Positions 40,460 through 49,709 of a stretch of 64,000 nt of DNA are shown piece by piece. The notes under the pieces are model-generated. The model saw only the letters and a program-made list of their open reading frames with translations. It was not told the DNA's origin and searched no databases. Position 1 is the stretch's first letter. Every line of letters begins with the position of its first letter. Source of the DNA: Trichocoleus desertorum NBK24 (GTDB lineage: Bacteria > Cyanobacteriota > Cyanobacteriia > FACHB-46); NCBI RefSeq assembly GCF_030409055.1, contig NZ_CP116619.1, positions 1 through 64,000 on the forward strand. Reading direction: 5' to 3'. Made by a program: the position numbers and the translations under genes.

Positions 40460-40530
40460 GTCACTTTTCTGTCACATTTATTGCTGACATTAGAAGTAAA
40501 GCCTTAATCACAGCTTTACTGAGGTCATCT
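40460..40530 (+). promoter_or_regulatory. Opsin promoter with TCAC direct repeats, plus leader hairpin
   Basis: TCAC occurs at 40461-40464 and again at 40472-40475, an 11-bp spacing (one helical turn), within GTCACTTTTCTGTCACATTT. The same arrangement, with TCACATT and TTGCTGA conserved, lies at 44471-44500 at almost the same distance from the next start codon. A possible -10 (TAGAAGT) follows at 40491. An 8-bp stem AGTAAAGC/GCTTTACT (40495-40520) ends just before the TGAGG ribosome site at 40520-40524 and the ATG at 40531. Such spacing suits an OmpR-family dimer; the binding protein is inferred. Confidence 0.5.
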
Positions 40531-41343
40531 ATGAATTGGCAGAGCCTTTTGCACTGGATTTATGTAGCGGGAATGGCGATCGGAGCCTTACACTTTTGGT
40601 CTTTGAGCCGTGACCCTCGTGGCGTTCCTCAACGAGAATACTTAGTCGCCATCTTTATCCCCATTTGGTCAGGGCTGGCGTATATGGCGATGGCTCTTGA
40701 TCAAGGCAAGGTTGAGGCGGCAGGCCAAGTAGCTCATTATGCTCGCTATGTGGATTGGATTGTCACCACGCCTCTGCTCCTGTTAGCGCTGTCTTGGACA
40801 GCTATGCATTCCATTCGCAAAGATCTAACGCTGATTGGTTTTCTGATGAGTACCCAGGTGGTTGTCATTACCACTGGACTGATTGCAGACCTCTCTGAAC
40901 CGGATTGGATTAGATACTTGTGGTATAGCTGTGGCGTTGCCGCGTTTCTCATCGTGCTTTGGGGCATTTGGGGTCCTTTACGCCAGAAAACCAAAACCCA
41001 AGAGGCAGAATTAGCTAGCCTTTACGATAAACTAGTCACCTACTTTACGGTGTTATGGATTGGTTATCCGATCGTCTGGATCATCGGTCCTTCCGGTTTG
41101 GGATTGGTAGACCAAAATATAGATACTCTCTTATTTTGCATCTTGCCTTTCTTCTCTAAGGTTGGGTTTAGCTTTCTAGATTTACATGGGTTACGCAATC
41201 TCGAAGAGCATCACGCTCGAACCACAGCGGAGGGTTTAGCGGGAAAAACTCTTTACTTTTTAGGTATTATTACAGCCTCTTGGAGACCAAAACGTCGGTC
41301 AGTGCGGCGATCGCTTAACCCTGCGGACAACCAACCGTACTAA
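40531..41343 (+). CDS. Microbial rhodopsin of the Anabaena sensory rhodopsin type
   Basis: 270 residues, seven membrane helices, very similar to Anabaena sensory rhodopsin (ASR) over helices A-G: LLHWIYVAGMAIGALHFWSL, IPIWSGLAYMAMA, YARYVDWIVTTPLLLLALS, DKLVTYFTVLWIGYPIVWII, LPFFSKVGFSFLDLHGLRNL. Numbering coincides with ASR: Schiff-base Lys210, counter-ion Asp75, Asp198, the unusual Pro206, cytoplasmic Asp217, Glu36 and Glu62 are all present. Leu83 suggests green absorption. Position 86, Ser in ASR, is Ala here. ASR is a photochromic sensor working with a soluble transducer encoded just downstream; no such gene is present in this window. The C-terminal 40 residues are basic (RPKRRSVRRS) and differ from ASR. 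Confidence 0.95.
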   Translation: MNWQSLLHWIYVAGMAIGALHFWSLSRDPRGVPQREYLVAIFIPIWSGLAYMAMALDQGKVEAAGQVAHYARYVDWIVTTPLLLLALSWTAMHSIRKDLTLIGFLMSTQVVVITTGLIADLSEPDWIRYLWYSCGVAAFLIVLWGIWGPLRQKTKTQEAELASLYDKLVTYFTVLWIGYPIVWIIGPSGLGLVDQNIDTLLFCILPFFSKVGFSFLDLHGLRNLEEHHARTTAEGLAGKTLYFLGIITASWRPKRRSVRRSLNPADNQPY

Positions 41344-41484
41344 GCTTTGCCCTAACTGAGCCTTGAAGTTTTAAGGAGCGATTGATTGAGGTGAAACAAA
41401 CCTAAAAGGCAAACCGCGATCGCTCACTTAATTCTTGTTTAACTCGCTAGAATTCATTCACTATAACTCTTAGGCGCAACTGTC

Positions 41485-41838
41485 ATGCTTGGACTTTTAT
41501 TAACCTGGCTAATTACGACAATTAGCTTTTTAATTATTTCTCGGCTACCGCTTGGAATTGAAATTGATAGCTTTGGTAAAGCAGCTCTATCCGCTGCTGT
41601 TTTTGGGGTTTTAAACGCACTATTGCGGCCTGTTCTGGCCTTTTTTACTTTCCCCTTCCTCCTTCTCACCTTTGGTTTGTTTGCCTTTATTTTGAATGCC
41701 ATTATCTTTGGCTTAGCTGCCTTGATAGTCCAAGGATTTCGCTTAAGATGGGGAATTTGGAGCGCTTTGTTAGGCTCCATCACCTTGGGAATTGTAAATT
41801 CTGTTCTCTTTAGAGTTCTGGCATCCCTGAATCTGTAA
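41485..41838 (+). CDS. Phage holin 4-family (PF04020-type) membrane protein
   Basis: 117 residues with four hydrophobic helices: LLLTWLITTISFLIISRL, FGKAALSAAVFGVLNALLRP, VLAFFTFPFLLLTFGLFAFI, NAIIFGLAALIVQGF. The LLRPVL and LTFGLFxFxxNA pattern is characteristic of this family, which despite its name is a widespread bacterial membrane protein of unknown role. It sits 141 bp downstream of the opsin in the same direction, where ASR systems place the transducer. Nothing links it to light sensing except position. Confidence 0.82.
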   Translation: MLGLLLTWLITTISFLIISRLPLGIEIDSFGKAALSAAVFGVLNALLRPVLAFFTFPFLLLTFGLFAFILNAIIFGLAALIVQGFRLRWGIWSALLGSITLGIVNSVLFRVLASLNL

Positions 41839-41882
41839 ATAGCCTCAAGTTAATTTCTTCAAGCTATTTTCCTAAGCAAGCT

Positions 41883-42275
41883 CTACTCATCTCTGATTCG
41901 ATAATATGCCAATCTTCTAATATTTTCCTGTGGCAATCCTAACTCCTGGGCGATAAGCGACTCTAATTGACTAGATTCGGTTGTTGGAAACTCAAACTCT
42001 AGCTTTGTCAGAGCGGAGTCTGAGGTTTTTACTGCTACTCTAGTCACTGCTTGAGGTTTAAAAATGTCAACTTGAATGGATGTCACCGTTGCAGAAAGCT
42101 GAATTTCTAACTGAGTATCGGCCTGGAGCTTAGAAACAGTTCCATAAGAACGGCTCAACACTCGCTCTGCCAGCAAATTGCCACTGAGCCAAAAGACCAA
42201 CCCTAGTAAAGGGAGAGGGAGCCAGAATTCTAAGCCAAAAGACCCCAAAACACGCCGCCAACGGGAAGAAAACAT
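41883..42275 (-). CDS. Membrane-anchored hypothetical protein, divergent to rppA
   Basis: 130 residues from the ATG at 42275 (MFSSRWRRVLGSFGLEFWLP); the frame is open to 42350 but the extra residues look random. One membrane helix near 15-35 (EFWLPLPLLGLVFWLSGNLL), then a soluble beta-rich domain with LEIQLSATVTSIQVDIF and ESLIAQELGLPQENIRRLAY. The N-terminus is likely cytoplasmic and the domain periplasmic. Unknown function. It is divergent from the response regulator at 42431, so co-regulation is possible. Confidence 0.6.
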   Translation of the reverse strand: MFSSRWRRVLGSFGLEFWLPLPLLGLVFWLSGNLLAERVLSRSYGTVSKLQADTQLEIQLSATVTSIQVDIFKPQAVTRVAVKTSDSALTKLEFEFPTTESSQLESLIAQELGLPQENIRRLAYYRIRDE

Positions 42276-42430
42276 TAGGAAAGCAGTGACTCGATGTGAC
42301 TGGATGATCGTTGCTGAATGATAAATATTAATCTTACTAGTCATTATCAAGGACTGAAATCCTACCCTTGAGAGACGAACTCATCAGCTAGATGCTTTAA
42401 GTTTGAGTCGATAAAAACGAAGAGCAAGCG

Positions 42431-43111
42431 ATGCGGATACTGCTCGTTGAGGATGATCCTGAACAACTAGAACCTCTACATACCGCCCTATCTGGGGCTG
42501 GACATAACGTAGATGGGGTAGAAGATGGTGAGATGGCTGAATGGTTGCTATCTCAAAGGAATTATGAATTGCTTATCCTTGATTGGATGTTACCCAATGT
42601 CAGTGGTCTCAGCCTTTGCCGCCAATATCGCTGCTTGAACAAAACAGCGCCCGTGTTAATGCTGACAGCAAGGGATACAATTTCCGATAAAGTGACAGGT
42701 CTAGATGCTGGGGCAGATGACTACTTAGTGAAGCCTGTAGATCTAATTGAGCTACTGGCAAGAGTGCGGGCTTTAGGACGGCGATCGCCCGTTTGGCAAG
42801 GAGAGACCCTGAGGATTGCGGATCTTCAGCTAAGTTCATCTAGTCTGACGGCTCAACGAGGACAGTACACTGTGGAACTCTCTAGTCAAGAATTTCAATT
42901 GCTAGAGCATCTCATGCGGCATCCTCACCAGATATTAACTCGCGATCAGATTGAACAAGCGCTCTGGGAGTGGGGGCAAGAACCAGAGAGTAATGCCTTG
43001 ACCGCACTGGTACGCCGAGTTCGACAGCGCTTGCAAGTTGTAGGTGCAGCCAGTTGGATCGAAACTATTTATGGCATGGGTTATCGCCTCAGCCCTCCCA
43101 GCGAACCATGA
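42431..43111 (+). CDS. rppA: OmpR-family response regulator, RppA-like
   Basis: 226 residues. Receiver 1-120: acidic pair EDDPE, phospho-Asp51 in LLILDWMLPN, Thr in MLTARD and Lys in YLVKPVD. Winged-helix 125-222 with VELSSQEFQLLEHLMRHPHQ, VRRVRQRLQ and IETIYGMGYRL. It closely resembles cyanobacterial RppA/NrsR-type regulators, which act with RppB on redox- or metal-related photosynthesis genes in Synechocystis. The partner kinase starts 15 bp downstream. OmpR-type regulators bind direct repeats about 10-11 bp apart, such as those at 40461 and 44472. Confidence 0.85.
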   Translation: MRILLVEDDPEQLEPLHTALSGAGHNVDGVEDGEMAEWLLSQRNYELLILDWMLPNVSGLSLCRQYRCLNKTAPVLMLTARDTISDKVTGLDAGADDYLVKPVDLIELLARVRALGRRSPVWQGETLRIADLQLSSSSLTAQRGQYTVELSSQEFQLLEHLMRHPHQILTRDQIEQALWEWGQEPESNALTALVRRVRQRLQVVGAASWIETIYGMGYRLSPPSEP

Positions 43112-43125
43112 CAACCCATTGCTAA

Positions 43126-44427
43126 ATGTTCAACCGCAGTCGTCGTAACTTAGCTCGTTGGTTTACCCTGTCAATGGGAAGTATTCTGGTTGTCTTTACA
43201 GGAGTACTCTATAACCAAGAAGTCAATGAACGGCTAGAAGATATAGACCGACTGCTCTATAAGAAAGCCAGTGTCATGGCGGCAAATGTGCAGTTCAAAC
43301 GCTACCCAAACCAGTGGCAAGTCAAGCTAGACAAGGTTCCTTTCTTAGGAAATAACCCGCTACCCTCCGACAGTGAAATTGTTTATGCCCGCTGGTATAA
43401 CGCTCAGGGAAATTTGGTGCAATATTTTGGTGCTCCTCCGCCAGAGCAGGTGCGCACCCAGATTACGACCATCTCCGCTTTTCAGACGATCAAAACTACC
43501 GATAACTTAACTGATGACTTATCAGATCCAAAACCTGTTTGGCTGCGTCAGGTTACCTTAGCTGTGCAGGAATCTGGTATAGACATTGGCTATCTCCAAG
43601 TTGGCATCCCACTGACTCCTATCCAAGAAGCTCTGCGGGGGTTTCTGCTTTTATTGACGTTGACAGTCCCTATTACCCTAGGTCTGATTGCTGGCACAGG
43701 TTGGATTCTGGGAGGATTGGCAATGCAACCTGTCCATCAAGCCTACGAACAGCTACAGCGTTTCACCGCCAATGCCTCTCATGAACTGCGAACTCCTTTG
43801 GCCGTGGTGCTTAGCAATGCTCAGGTAGCACTTCTCACACCGACTCAAGATGCGGCTCAGCAACGTCTCCGCCTAGAAAAAATTGTGGAGGTGACGAAGT
43901 CTATGAGTAATTTGATTGGGAATCTACTGCTGCTGGCCCGTCATGCAACCTACCTGGATACCGAGTCTCTAAAAACTATTGATCTCACTGATCTATTGCG
44001 ATCGCTCCTCAACTTTTACACGTCGCAAGCCACAGAAAGAGCTTTGAGTTTGGCGAGCCATTTGCCTGCATACCCGATCAAACTGCGAGCCGAGCCAGAT
44101 TTGATTCGTCAAGCGGTGAGTAATCTCTTGAGCAATGCGCTCAACTACACTCCCGCTGGTGGAACTGTTCAGGTGCGGTTGTTTGTCCAAGCACATCAGG
44201 TAGTGATCCAAGTCGAAGATGATGGAATCGGCATTCCAGAGAAAGATCTGTCTCGTATCTTTGAGCGCTTTTATCGAGTGAATCAAGATCGCTCAAAACA
44301 GTCTAGTGGGTTCGGCTTAGGATTGGCGATCGCGCAACAAATTATTGAGGCTCATCAAGGACATATCACTGTTAGCAGCCAATTCGGACGGGGAACTACG
44401 TTTCAAATTGAGCTGCCTCTGCGATAA
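43126..44427 (+). CDS. rppB: Sensor histidine kinase, RppB-like
   Basis: 433 residues. Helix 1 near 12-30 (WFTLSMGSILVVFTGVLYNQ), a periplasmic loop 31-165 with no cysteine-rich or haem motif, helix 2 at 166-195 (FLLLLTLTVPITLGLIAGTG), then HisKA with ANASHELRTPLAVV and HATPase_c to the end (DDGIGIPE, GFGLGLAIAQQI). It phosphorylates the adjacent RppA-like regulator. The periplasmic domain is the sensing part; the ligand is not evident. Operon with rppA (14-bp gap). Confidence 0.85.
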   Translation: MFNRSRRNLARWFTLSMGSILVVFTGVLYNQEVNERLEDIDRLLYKKASVMAANVQFKRYPNQWQVKLDKVPFLGNNPLPSDSEIVYARWYNAQGNLVQYFGAPPPEQVRTQITTISAFQTIKTTDNLTDDLSDPKPVWLRQVTLAVQESGIDIGYLQVGIPLTPIQEALRGFLLLLTLTVPITLGLIAGTGWILGGLAMQPVHQAYEQLQRFTANASHELRTPLAVVLSNAQVALLTPTQDAAQQRLRLEKIVEVTKSMSNLIGNLLLLARHATYLDTESLKTIDLTDLLRSLLNFYTSQATERALSLASHLPAYPIKLRAEPDLIRQAVSNLLSNALNYTPAGGTVQVRLFVQAHQVVIQVEDDGIGIPEKDLSRIFERFYRVNQDRSKQSSGFGLGLAIAQQIIEAHQGHITVSSQFGRGTTFQIELPLR

Positions 44428-44470
44428 GTGCGATCGCTGACAGCAAAACTTTGTAGGGATATTTAGCCCT

Positions 44471-44510
44471 GTCACTTTCTAATCACATTCGTTGCTGAAA
44501 CTAAAGATAT
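44471..44510 (+). promoter_or_regulatory. TCAC direct-repeat promoter element of the beta-barrel gene
   Basis: TCAC at 44472-44475 and 44483-44486 (11-bp spacing) within GTCACTTTCTAATCACATTC, followed by TTGCTGA and a possible -10 TAAAGAT at 44501-44507. It aligns base for base with 40460-40497 upstream of the opsin gene. The distance from the first TCAC to the ATG is 67 bp here and 70 bp there. Confidence 0.5.
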
Positions 44511-44538: not shown

Positions 44539-45147
44539 ATGAATACCCCTTGTTCTAAAGGCACTTTCACAGCACTCGGCCTTGGTATATTAGCGATCGC
44601 CTGGAATGGCCTACCTGCCCAAGCTGAGGCGGTTAGCTCCGACCTCCATACTACCGCCCCTAACACAGTTAGTAATACAGCAATATTAGAGAGTGATTCC
44701 ACAGATCTGATAATTGCTCAAACTATTTCACCCGGTACCGCTACCCGTTCTGGCTCTAGCTATGTCGGCGTAGGTGGCAACATTGGTCTCAGTGGTAGAA
44801 CAGCTTTAGGCAACGGCAATTTCGCTGTCTTTAGTAAAGTTGGGGTGACTGATAATGTCTCCGTTCGCCCTGCTGCCATAGTTGGTAATAGAGCTACTTT
44901 CCTATTGCCCGTGACGGTTGACTTCCCCACAGCGGCAGCCACCGGAGATGGTCGTCTTAGCATCGCTCCCTACGTTGGTGGGGGTGCTGTTCTTTCAACC
45001 GGAAGAGATGGCCGACTGCGGCCTATGGTGACGGGTGGCGTAGATGCCCCTATCTCTGATAGCCTCACGGCTACAGCTGGGGTCAATGTAGGGTTCCTTC
45101 GCAGAACCGAAGTGGGATTACAACTAGGACTAGGTTACAACTTCTAA
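44539..45147 (+). CDS. Exported beta-barrel-like outer-membrane protein
   Basis: 202 residues. Signal peptide of about 29 residues (ALGLGILAIAWNGLPAQA). From residue 70 there is a run of amphipathic strands: SYVGVGGNIGLSG, FAVFSKVGVTDNVSVRPAAI, TFLLPVTVDF, LSIAPYVGGGAV, LTATAGVNVGF, EVGLQLGLGYNF. The terminal Phe after aromatic-x alternation is the outer-membrane barrel signature. About eight strands are predicted. It follows rppB by 111 bp and has its own promoter element shared with the opsin gene. Confidence 0.7.
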   Translation: MNTPCSKGTFTALGLGILAIAWNGLPAQAEAVSSDLHTTAPNTVSNTAILESDSTDLIIAQTISPGTATRSGSSYVGVGGNIGLSGRTALGNGNFAVFSKVGVTDNVSVRPAAIVGNRATFLLPVTVDFPTAAATGDGRLSIAPYVGGGAVLSTGRDGRLRPMVTGGVDAPISDSLTATAGVNVGFLRRTEVGLQLGLGYNF

Positions 45148-45244: not shown

Positions 45245-46591
45245 GTGAATAAACGTGAAACCTATCAATCACACAGTCTCTCTGTCATCGCAGCAGCGGC
45301 ACCAAAGCCTACTTTATCTTTTACAGATGCAGTTGCTCTGATTGTCGGCATTGTCATTGGGGCAGGGATTTTTGAAACACCTACCTTGGTAGCAGCAAAT
45401 GCAAGTAGTAAAGCAGAAGTAGTATTACTCTGGCTCTTAGGCGGGGGGATGTCGCTGCTGGGAGCCCTCTGTTATGCGGAACTAGCAACCACCTATCCGC
45501 ATGTGGGAGGAAACTACCACTATCTAATGCGAGCTTTTGGCAGGCGGGCAGCTTTTCTGTTTGCTTGGGCCAGAATGACTGTCATCCAAACAGGTTCGAT
45601 CGCTCTACTCGCTTTTGTTCTAGGCGATTACGCTTCTCAGTTATTTCGGCTTGGCCCATTCTCTGCCTCTCTTTATGCTGCCATCGCGATCGCCTGTCTA
45701 ACTGGCCTCAATATTCTGGGGGTACAGCAGGGGAAATGTGCACAAAACTGGCTAACCGTTGCCCAAGTTTTGGGGCTTTTACTAGTGGTCGTGGCGGGGA
45801 TGGCCTTTATCCCTCTGGCTCCATCGGTGCCTTCTACCACCTCATCCCAAGGTACTCTAGGACTCGCTCTGCTATTTGTATTGCTGTCCTACGGTGGCTG
45901 GAACGAAGCGGCTTATATCTCCGCAGAAGTTCAGGATGGTCGGCGCAACATTGCACGATCGCTACTTTGGAGTGTTGGCATTATTACTGCCGTTTATTTA
46001 CTAGTCAACCTAGCCTATCTGCAAGGCTTGGGGCTAGCGGCGATGGCCGAATCAGAAGCGATCGCTGCGGATCTAATGCGCCGAGTCTTGGGTCCGCCAG
46101 GAGCAGCTTTCATCAGCCTCTTAATTACCATTTGCACCTTGAGTTCAATTAACGCCACCATCTTCACGGGAGCTAGGACGAACTACGCTTTGGGGCAAGA
46201 TTTTTCCCTCTTTTCTTTCTTAGGCCGTTGGCAACCAAACTCTAATACCCCCGCTGCTGCCCTGCTAGCTCAAGGGGCGATCGCGCTGACTTTAGTTCTA
46301 TTGGGAACGGTCACTCGTCGAGGCTTTGAGACGATGGTAGACTACACAGCTCCCATCTTCTGGTTTTTCTTTTTGCTAACTGGAGTAGCGCTTCTCGTGC
46401 TGCGAAAACAAGAGCCCGAAAGACCCCGCCCTTTTCAGGTTCCTCTTTATCCGTGGATACCCTTGCTATTTTGCCTCATCAGCCTTTATTTACTTTACTC
46501 CAGCCTAGTTTATACAGGCATAGGCGCATTTCTAGGAGTAGCTGTGGTGTTAGCGGGTATTCCTCTATTCTCGTGGAGTCGCAGGCGATAA
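45245..46591 (+). CDS. APC-family amino-acid permease
   Basis: 448 residues from a GTG start, about twelve membrane helices. The first helix has the family motif VGIVIGAGIFETP (G-x-G-I-F) and loop GGNYHYLMRAFGRRAAFLFA. YGGWNEAAYISAEVQDGRRN is the APC helix-6 motif. It is a proton- or substrate-coupled transporter of amino acids in the plasma membrane. The exact substrate is not predictable. It shares no strand break with the barrel gene, 97 bp upstream. Confidence 0.88.
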   Translation: MNKRETYQSHSLSVIAAAAPKPTLSFTDAVALIVGIVIGAGIFETPTLVAANASSKAEVVLLWLLGGGMSLLGALCYAELATTYPHVGGNYHYLMRAFGRRAAFLFAWARMTVIQTGSIALLAFVLGDYASQLFRLGPFSASLYAAIAIACLTGLNILGVQQGKCAQNWLTVAQVLGLLLVVVAGMAFIPLAPSVPSTTSSQGTLGLALLFVLLSYGGWNEAAYISAEVQDGRRNIARSLLWSVGIITAVYLLVNLAYLQGLGLAAMAESEAIAADLMRRVLGPPGAAFISLLITICTLSSINATIFTGARTNYALGQDFSLFSFLGRWQPNSNTPAAALLAQGAIALTLVLLGTVTRRGFETMVDYTAPIFWFFFLLTGVALLVLRKQEPERPRPFQVPLYPWIPLLFCLISLYLLYSSLVYTGIGAFLGVAVVLAGIPLFSWSRRR

Positions 46592-46667: not shown

Positions 46668-47303
46668 ATGCAACTACAAAGAATCCTTTTGTTATTTGCT
46701 AGCGTTGGAGTCGTTAGTTTAGGGACTGCCGCCTGCACCCAACAGCGCAATTTTGAAGCCGATGCTCAAAGCAGCACCCAGACTAACACACCAACAGTTG
46801 CACCCACCGCTCAACCCCAAGAACGGCAAGCAGATGTACCCTTTGTCCCAACTCCCCCCGAAGTGGTTGAGGGCATGCTGGAGCTAGCTAAAGTAGGGCC
46901 TAACGATGTTCTCTATGACTTGGGCAGCGGTGATGGCCGCATTGTGATCGCGGCTGCAAAAGAGTTTGGGACTCGTGGTACTGGAATTGACATCAATCCA
47001 GAATTAGTACAGCAAAGCCGAGAAAATGCTCAACAAGCTGGAGTGGGCGATCGCACCCGTTTTCTACAGCAAGACTTGTTTGAAACTGATCTGAGCGATG
47101 CTACAGTTGTCACGCTTTACTTGCTCCCAGATGTCAATCTCAAGCTGCGTCCAAAGCTCCTGCGAGAACTCAGACCCGGAACTCGAATTGTATCCCACGC
47201 TTTCGACATGGGCGACTGGAAACCAGAACGAGTTGAGCAAATCCAAGGAAGAACCATTTACTACTGGGTAGTGCCCGAACAAGTCCCTGCTAACCTGCAA
47301 TAA
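46668..47303 (+). CDS. SAM methyltransferase with lipoprotein-like export signal
   Basis: 211 residues. N-terminus MQLQRILLLFASVGVVSLG, then TAAC, is a hydrophobic export signal ending in a lipobox-like Cys. A Thr/Gln/Pro-rich linker (25-60) follows, then a class I methyltransferase fold: motif I LYDLGSGDGRIVIAAA, acidic end of strand 2 GTGIDINPELV and TRFLQQDLF. Ribosome site AAGGAG. SAM is not normally available outside the cytoplasm, so either the domain is used for another ligand, the signal is a membrane anchor with the domain inside, or the enzyme is inactive. Related exported proteins occur in cyanobacteria as far as I recall. Confidence 0.78.
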   Translation: MQLQRILLLFASVGVVSLGTAACTQQRNFEADAQSSTQTNTPTVAPTAQPQERQADVPFVPTPPEVVEGMLELAKVGPNDVLYDLGSGDGRIVIAAAKEFGTRGTGIDINPELVQQSRENAQQAGVGDRTRFLQQDLFETDLSDATVVTLYLLPDVNLKLRPKLLRELRPGTRIVSHAFDMGDWKPERVEQIQGRTIYYWVVPEQVPANLQ

Positions 47304-48944: not shown

Positions 48945-49709
48945 ATGACTTACTCACTGTTTCACCTAATCTTTATCTTGCCGCCTATTTTATTGCTTGC
49001 CTCGCAGCAACCGCAGCCCTTGGCAGGTGTGGGAGGTCGTAAGGCTGGGATCTCTCTATTCCTGATTGCGGCTGTAGCGTTTGTCTACACAACACCTTGG
49101 GACAACTATCTAATTTGGCGCGATGTATGGCACTATGGTCGCGATCGCGTGGTGGGTACGGTTGGTTATGTCCCCATCGAAGAGTATTTGTTCTTTGTAC
49201 TACAGCCCATTCTTACAGGGCTATGGCTATATCGCCTGCTAGCTCATACGGGGGAACCAAGCGAACTAAAAATCACTCCCACAGCCAATGTAGCAGGTAC
49301 AATCATTTGGGCAAGCCTGAGTCTCATGGGTGTATGGTTGCTTCAACGTGACTTCGGAGTCTATCTGGGGCTAATTTTGGTTTGGGCTGGCCCAATCTTA
49401 GCGTTGCAATGGCTGATCGGAGGAGCACAGCTTTGGGTTCGCAAACGCCTTTGGCTAACTGCCACTTTGCTTCCCACCTTATATCTGTGGGTCGCCGATC
49501 GCATTGCCATCGGTCAAGGCATTTGGAGCATATCAGAGACCTATACGACTGGGCTACACTTATTTGGGCTACCCATCGAAGAAGCCACTTTCTTCCTCGT
49601 CACTAACTTCTTAGTCGTGCAAGGGCTATTACTGTTCTTAGTATTTAGTAGTTCTAGTTCTAGCTCCGAACCCAAGGTGCCCAAGGTGGAACAGCAACAA
49701 ACTGTCTAA
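48945..49709 (+). CDS. CrtYc/CrtYd-type lycopene cyclase domain protein
   Basis: 254 residues, about seven membrane helices. Two similar halves, each with the cyclase motifs: TTPWDNYLIW and YVPIEEYLFFVLQP in the first, DRIAIGQGIW and GLPIEEATFFLVTN in the second. This fused Yc-Yd form is the membrane lycopene beta-cyclase of haloarchaea, Bacteroidetes and some actinobacteria, unlike the CruA/CruP or CrtL enzymes standard in cyanobacteria. It would make beta-carotene, the precursor of retinal. No retinal-forming oxygenase is in the window. C-terminus is a run of Ser residues. Confidence 0.8.
   Translation: MTYSLFHLIFILPPILLLASQQPQPLAGVGGRKAGISLFLIAAVAFVYTTPWDNYLIWRDVWHYGRDRVVGTVGYVPIEEYLFFVLQPILTGLWLYRLLAHTGEPSELKITPTANVAGTIIWASLSLMGVWLLQRDFGVYLGLILVWAGPILALQWLIGGAQLWVRKRLWLTATLLPTLYLWVADRIAIGQGIWSISETYTTGLHLFGLPIEEATFFLVTNFLVVQGLLLFLVFSSSSSSSEPKVPKVEQQQTV

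Follow-up and report, generated by a model that had tools for sequence, protein, structure and literature searches.

This report concerns a short DNA element that occurs twice in a 64,000-nucleotide stretch of the cyanobacterium Trichocoleus desertorum NBK24 (contig NZ_CP116619.1, positions 1–64,000, forward strand; hereafter, the window): once before an opsin gene, and once before a gene for a probable outer-membrane beta-barrel protein. The two genes lie on either side of a two-component system, and comparison with other genomes indicates that the element is probably the operator-promoter of a regulon run by that system. In these sequence comparisons the element is conserved, sits at a fixed distance from a downstream A/T pair, and is linked, both statistically and physically, to the clade of response regulators to which the encoded regulator belongs.

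Two copies of the element in the window

The sequence GTCACTTT-N4-TCACATT-N2-TTGCTGA occurs without mismatch at positions 40460–40487 and 44471–44498. In both copies the two TCAC motifs repeat with a period of 11 bp, and the first TCAC lies 70 nt before the start codon of the opsin gene and 67 nt before that of the barrel gene. The shared repeat, its spacing and these distances had all been put forward in the original prediction, and the measured values agree with it; the two-part pattern, with up to three mismatches, was found in none of 100 dinucleotide-preserving shuffles of the window. The predicted regulator sites, both on the + strand, are 40461–40478 (TCACTTT at 40461–40467, TCACATT at 40472–40478; upstream of the opsin gene) and 44472–44489 (TCACTTT at 44472–44478, TCACATT at 44483–44489; upstream of the barrel gene).

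Rarity in the T. desertorum genome

The complete genome sequence (5.46 Mb, one contig) was scanned for the element, with the reversed pattern as the control for motif scans. The shorter core, TCACTTTNNNNTCACATT, is rare rather than frequent at random: it has three exact sites, namely those before the opsin and barrel genes and a third at G000:C1:1822645, which precedes a gene for a PQQ-type sugar dehydrogenase (GSDH). When the pattern is lengthened to 31 nt so as to take in the −10 bases, a further credible site appears on the opposite strand (1822579–1822609, two mismatches), directly before a divergent AI-2E-type permease gene. By this pattern there are four credible sites only (with 0, 0, 1 and 2 mismatches), followed by twelve sites with three mismatches, compared with eight control matches over the whole search. 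Looser matches are at control level: the 18-nt core with up to two mismatches gives 26 matches in all versus 22 for the control, and the first, longer pattern with up to three mismatches gives 13 versus 10. A larger regulon within this genome was thus rejected.

In a sister genome of the same genus (G002), the sugar-dehydrogenase element is doubled, with copies at C1:86320–86350 and C1:87538–87568 (loci L083 and L096), ~1.2 kb apart; no gene that clearly belongs to the second copy follows it.

Conservation and promoter layout

The exact core was found at 30 sites in 18 of 145 genomes (T. desertorum included; three control matches), and at 77 sites in 45 of the 388 genomes of the class (six control matches). 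The 31-nt pattern, allowed one mismatch at most, yields 143 sites in 69 of the same 388 genomes, versus 15 control matches. A single genome (G192:C1, loci L206–L212) carries the exact element eight times, before genes for an opsin and for ferric-reductase-like, rhomboid, AI-2E-like, BrkB-like and glycogen-debranching-like proteins.

A logo was built from 115 distinct exact sites, some of which come from loci fetched by opsin similarity. Beyond the searched letters, four columns stand out: T18 (83%), A26 (87%), T30 (81%) and A33 (70%). A weaker Y-T-G precedes the first TCAC, and offset 37 is A in 57% of sites. TTGCTGA, which had been counted as part of the shared element, does not survive this comparison, in that it forms no separate conserved block among the 115 sites; its reading as a −35 box was rejected, the conserved columns beyond the searched letters being T18, A26 and T30.

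The layout resembles that of a promoter in which an operator takes the place of the −35 box. Offsets 25–30 (nAnnnT) would be a −10 hexamer that keeps the two bases most critical to it and lacks the usual first T (offset 25 is T in only 18% of sites). At 17-bp spacing, the expected −35 place is offsets 2–7, which read ACTTTY; the half-site thus appears to occupy the −35 position. The direct repeat of half-sites with an 11-bp period, as in PhoB-type promoters, is what the 77 exact sites (against six for the control) have in common. Among 77 sites with one mismatch, the change seen most often in the upstream half-site, TCACTTT, replaces the C at its fourth base by T (17 sites). Applied to the window, the logo predicts a −10 hexamer GACATT at 40486–40491 (+ strand) for the opsin promoter, where the conserved A26 and T30 lie at the fixed distance, and GAAACT at 44497–44502 (+ strand) for the barrel promoter. 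If offset 37 is the transcription start, transcripts would begin near 40498 (opsin, 33-nt leader) and near 44509 (barrel, 30-nt leader).

The element upstream of opsin genes

The window opsin gene (40531–41343, + strand) encodes a Pfam Bac_rhodopsin protein whose closest solved structure is Anabaena sensory rhodopsin (ASR; 1xio). Residues 1–260 align with residues 1–259 of 1xio (E = 8.6e-136), by which the protein is identified as an ASR orthologue. A total of 76 loci with an ASR-type opsin were fetched on named contigs, some of them sharing one genome; four (L287, L294, L297 and L298) were left out as matches without an opsin start, leaving 72 opsin loci.

Within 300 bp upstream, 31 of the 72 loci have a site with at most two mismatches, a level reached by 0.14% of mononucleotide shuffles, while stretches inside genes never fall below four mismatches. 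When 600 bp are considered, a site precedes 36 of the 62 cyanobacterial opsins (reversed pattern: 4 of 62) and, at the same threshold, none of the 10 non-cyanobacterial ones. Thirty of the 36 sites point at the opsin; among all 36, A26 is present in 34 and T30 in 32. The taxa include Komarekiella, Calothrix, Spirirestis, Fischerella, Scytonema, Nodosilinea, Oculatella, Leptolyngbya and Phormidium. The original prediction had named, among the findings that would count against it, a motif common at random genome sites and a lack of conservation upstream of orthologous opsins; neither is the case.

Several opsin genes are broken while the element upstream is retained: in G002, C16 (L102/L104) carries two opsin fragments only, and both G002 C55 (L103/L133) and G235 (L220) have early stop codons. 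The opsin therefore seems to have been lost repeatedly, with the switch persisting for some time.

Identity of the two-component pair

The proposed binder of the sites is an OmpR/PhoB-family response regulator (42431–43111, + strand), and its proposed partner is a histidine kinase with HisKA and HATPase_c domains (43126–44427, + strand). The two had been described as an RppA/RppB-like pair, a description that holds in part. The regulator passes the cut-off of the RppA model NF041734 narrowly (258.9 bits; cut-off, 250); the kinase scores 305 against the RppB model NF041735, below the cut-off of 400. Three members of the regulator's own clade, defined as relatives of the window regulator with E ≤ 1e-75, fall on both sides of the RppA cut-off (242.0, 249.7 and 270.7 bits), and five more distant regulators score 262.0–396.7 bits. 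One of these RppA-scoring proteins is encoded in the T. desertorum genome itself (L406, 262.0 bits).

In a phylogenetic tree, the 49 clade rows are split from the five RppA-group rows (including L412, 396.7 bits) with 100/100 support, albeit with a long-branch warning. The region of the recognition helix reads approximately PESNAxTxLVR(R/K)LRQRLQ in most of the clade, and differs in the five RppA-group regulators. Judged by these comparisons, the window regulator belongs to a clade separate from the RppA group. It also fails the PhoB equivalog cut-off (184.6 versus 296.2). PhoB chains (3t72, 1gxp) are among the structures matched by its DNA-binding domain.

Linkage between element and regulator clade

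The regulator clade is widespread, being present in 110 of the 388 genomes of the class. The exact site and the clade occur together in 37 genomes, the site only in 8, the clade only in 73 and neither in 270 (p = 1.2e-15). The corresponding counts for the 31-nt pattern (at most one mismatch) are 52, 17, 58 and 261 (p = 1.4e-19). The physical linkage carries more weight: for 26 of the 77 exact sites a clade gene is located within 10 kb, with ~0.4 expected at an assumed genome size of 6 Mb. T18, A26 and T30 are found together in 43 of the 69 exact sites in clade genomes versus 1 of 8 in genomes without the clade, and at least two of the three are found in 60 of 69 versus 5 of 8.

The search for the clade in opsin genomes started from 50 of the 62 cyanobacterial opsin loci, of which L235 was excluded, leaving 49 genomes to be searched; the clade is present in 48, compared with 110 of 388 in the class. 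Fifteen genomes have, counting fragments, a best opsin match of 54% identity or more, and the clade is present in 13 of them. The two exceptions are G019 and G112, the opsin match of the latter being split. Twelve opsin loci were left out of the clade search, some of which share a genome with a searched locus; one of them (L289) has the same sequence as G019, and so the choice of loci slightly favoured the link.

A number of observations weigh against a simple pairing of element and regulator. The clade threshold was chosen after a gap had been seen, and the p values for co-occurrence are uncorrected for phylogeny or genome size. Among the 110 clade genomes, 73 have no exact site and 58 no looser site (31 nt, at most one mismatch). 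Conversely, genomes without the clade hold 8 of the 77 exact sites and 20 of the 143 looser sites. Some of these looser sites, in one family, belong to another element that starts with TAACTTT. A full site (T18, A26 and T30) precedes the opsin in the clade-free genome G019, which is 88% complete; this is the sole full site outside clade genomes. On the opsin side, the 600 bp upstream contain no site with at most two mismatches for 26 of the 62 cyanobacterial genes; where there is a site (36 genes), it lies on the strand opposite to the opsin in 6. When regulators are labelled on their tree by whether a site is nearby, the label needs 10 changes (shuffled mean, 16.4); it is clustered, yet does not form one clade. 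Finally, the window has no TCAC-N7-TCAC site before the regulator's own gene, and among 40 relatives' loci only L133 has one, a weak site, close upstream of the regulator. Autoregulation is thus not indicated, and was rejected as part of the model.

The TAACTTT element is distinct and conserved in its own right. It reads TAACTTT(C/T)TT(G/A)TCACATTTA, and was seen in one family (f32), in five genomes without the regulator clade (G086, G177, G190, G362 and G374; loci L323, L324, L326 and L328), with a related element in G128 (L352). By eye, the downstream gene assigned to it in L326 and L328 is pentapeptide- or J-domain-like.

Genes downstream of the element

The 143 looser sites reduce to 123 distinct sites in loci not fetched by the opsin scan. 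For 116 of these, an open reading frame (ORF) of at least 75 aa starts 25–450 nt downstream; the longest was taken in each case, so that some targets may be misassigned. The targets were clustered by similarity, and one representative per named cluster was scanned against Pfam.

The largest clusters are opsins (12), APC permeases (11), barrel proteins (9) and ferric-reductase-like proteins (5). Clusters of four comprise (i) AI-2E permeases, (ii) sugar dehydrogenases, (iii) rhomboid proteins, (iv) a family without a Pfam match that we take, by resemblance, to be like general stress proteins, and (v) a group that is pentapeptide- or J-domain-like by eye and includes the TAACTTT variant. Holin-family proteins, fasciclins, Fe/Mn superoxide dismutases and short-chain dehydrogenases form clusters of three; alpha-amylases, MgtE, cation ATPases and BrkB-like proteins form clusters of two. 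A universal stress protein, a PRC-barrel/DUF2382 protein, PurT and a glycogen-debranching-like enzyme occur once each, and several small clusters are without a Pfam match or unscanned. Catalase is represented by N-terminal parts only: a 135-aa ORF with a catalase match (L135) and, by eye, a similar fragment (L181). Among the 20 scanned representatives of target genes, none stood out as a phosphate gene.

By these annotations, the targets resemble those of a stress and envelope regulon. Since the element precedes stress- and envelope-type genes elsewhere, the sensory opsin is best regarded as one among the outputs of such a regulon.

Proposed mechanism

We propose that the kinase, upon receiving its signal, would phosphorylate the regulator, and that a head-to-tail regulator dimer would then bind the two TCAC half-sites, approximately one DNA turn apart, at the expected −35 place. 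The bound dimer may contact RNA polymerase and bring it to the adjacent weak −10 (nAnnnT), in a PhoB-like class II activation. As the promoter is without a −35 box, activation is considered more likely than repression. In T. desertorum the regulon would comprise the opsin, the barrel protein (possibly with the APC permease), the PQQ-type sugar dehydrogenase and the divergent AI-2E-type permease. The earlier suggestion of one regulon under the adjacent OmpR-family system is therefore supported, by opsin conservation, rarity, co-distribution and clustering; its extent of two genes was too small.

The nearest mechanistic model is the phosphate regulator PhoB. The E. coli Pho box unit is CTGTCATA. 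For E. coli PhoB, PMC1906773 describes boxes of 8 bp, arranged in tandem with linkers of 3 bp and placed 10 bp upstream of the −10, and prints the unit as CTGTACTA. Like the Pho boxes of PhoB and its cyanobacterial counterpart SphR, the element consists of tandem direct repeats with an 11-bp period, replacing the −35 box. When the TGTCA cores are aligned, the −10 follows after ~9 bp here, versus 10 bp in E. coli as described in that text.

Alternative explanations

It is unlikely that the element is bound by some other OmpR-family regulator (RpaB at its HLR1 site, SphR at its Pho box, or an RppA-group protein), and that the adjacent system lies close by accident. None of the three candidates predicts enrichment of the element near relatives of the window regulator and in genomes that carry them. 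HLR1 (KTTACAWW-N2-KTTACAWW, found at photosynthesis genes; PMC13421787) is likewise an OmpR-family direct repeat, and its half-site is one letter off GTCACATT. However, as given there, it has a 10-bp period (8 + 2) where the element has 11, another second base and another set of genes; with its TCAC half-sites and 11-bp period, the element was rejected as an HLR1. SphR resembles PhoB in reading repeats of 8 bp separated by linkers of 3 bp, but the Synechocystis SphR box is CTTAACCT, in at least three copies (PMC1906773). Identity with it was rejected: the half-site differs, and the 20 scanned targets gave no sign of phosphate genes. The window regulator falls in the same OmpR subfamily as the RppA of the Synechocystis PCC 6803 RppA/RppB system, and the second RppA-scoring regulator of T. 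desertorum (L406) could in principle bind the sites. The Synechocystis RppA motif is AAMAWCTCYYWCCCC (PMC13421787, quoting Yu et al. 2025) and its targets are given there as pigment genes, nrsBACD and rppAB; the element, of which the window regulator is the proposed binder, differs from this motif and has other targets. The recognition-helix region, too, differs in the five RppA-group regulators compared.

The element could also be an alternative-sigma promoter, with TCACATT as a −35-type sequence, nAnnnT as the −10 and the upstream half-site as an accessory contact. We consider this improbable. The rigid distance to the −10-like bases and the conserved −10 without the usual first T would suit such a promoter, and the targets recall the general-stress sigma regulons of other bacteria. 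The upstream TCACTTT, on the other hand, stands one 11-bp step from the second half-site, as in tandem OmpR/PhoB binding, and the predominance of the C to T change at its fourth base also speaks against the sigma explanation, which leaves the linkage to a response-regulator gene unexplained. Least credible of all, to the point of being negligible, is chance resemblance or the local duplication of one promoter. The two window copies are only 4 kb apart, but shuffling never produced them and the element is conserved across many families with different target genes. Moreover, the three + strand promoters (opsin, barrel, sugar dehydrogenase) are identical at 23–25 of 31 positions inside the element, versus 14–19 of 60 upstream and 11–18 of 44 downstream. 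With identity concentrated inside the 31-nt element and falling sharply beyond it, there is no sign of a duplicated promoter region, and local duplication was rejected.

Control by the adjacent two-component system remains the preferred explanation. We lean, with some reserve, towards the broader proposal that the element marks an undescribed cyanobacterial general- or envelope-stress regulon, in which an RppA-like clade, rather than a sigma factor, exerts control by reading a PhoB-style TCAC-N7-TCAC/−10 promoter and the ASR-type opsin is a core member. If so, cells would make an ASR-type photosensor when the stress system is on, and cyanobacteria could place superoxide dismutase, universal-stress and envelope genes, together with a photosensor, under one two-component system. 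What the analysis supplies is an exactly defined 31-nt element, one specific regulator gene and a set of candidates for co-regulation. In the literature searched, where most subscription papers are outside coverage, the matches listed contain no account of the element or of two-component control of an ASR-type opsin, and no DNA site for this regulator clade. On ASR and its transducer ASRT, PMC8660804 deals with their regulation of the phycoerythrocyanin promoter, unlike the present case, which concerns control of the opsin gene itself and in which the gene after the opsin encodes a holin-family protein.

Neighbouring genes

That next gene (41485–41838, + strand) encodes a small membrane protein of the Phage_holin_4_2 family; in some other cyanobacteria (G128, G170) it is preceded by its own copy of the site. 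It is followed by the gene for a divergent 130-aa membrane-anchored protein of no known family (41883–42275, − strand; the start at 42275 is set from homologues), with one N-terminal membrane helix and a small alpha/beta domain. The protein has no Pfam or NCBIfam match, and its model (mean pLDDT 68) has no PDB match with E < 0.03. A homologue lies beside the regulator gene in 31 of the 40 relatives' loci, and it is possible that the protein is an accessory of the kinase.

The gene at 44539–45147 (+ strand) likely encodes an outer-membrane barrel, as judged from its structural model. The protein has no Pfam match; the model (mean pLDDT 72.6) has an N-terminal hydrophobic helix, approximately eight strands and a C-terminal Phe. 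Foldseek returned 11 matches with E ≤ 0.001, all of them small barrels (eight-stranded; a designed barrel, OmpA, OprF, Ail and OmpX), with modest TM-scores of 0.37–0.47 by query length. Downstream lies the APC-family amino-acid permease gene (45245–46591, + strand), which has its own site copy in other cyanobacteria and may here be co-transcribed with the barrel gene. It adjoins, in several relatives as in the window, a gene for a methyltransferase-domain protein with a lipoprotein-like N terminus (46668–47303, + strand). A lycopene-cyclase-domain protein (TIGR03462) is encoded at 48945–49709, ~8 kb from the opsin gene, and is possibly linked to retinal supply.

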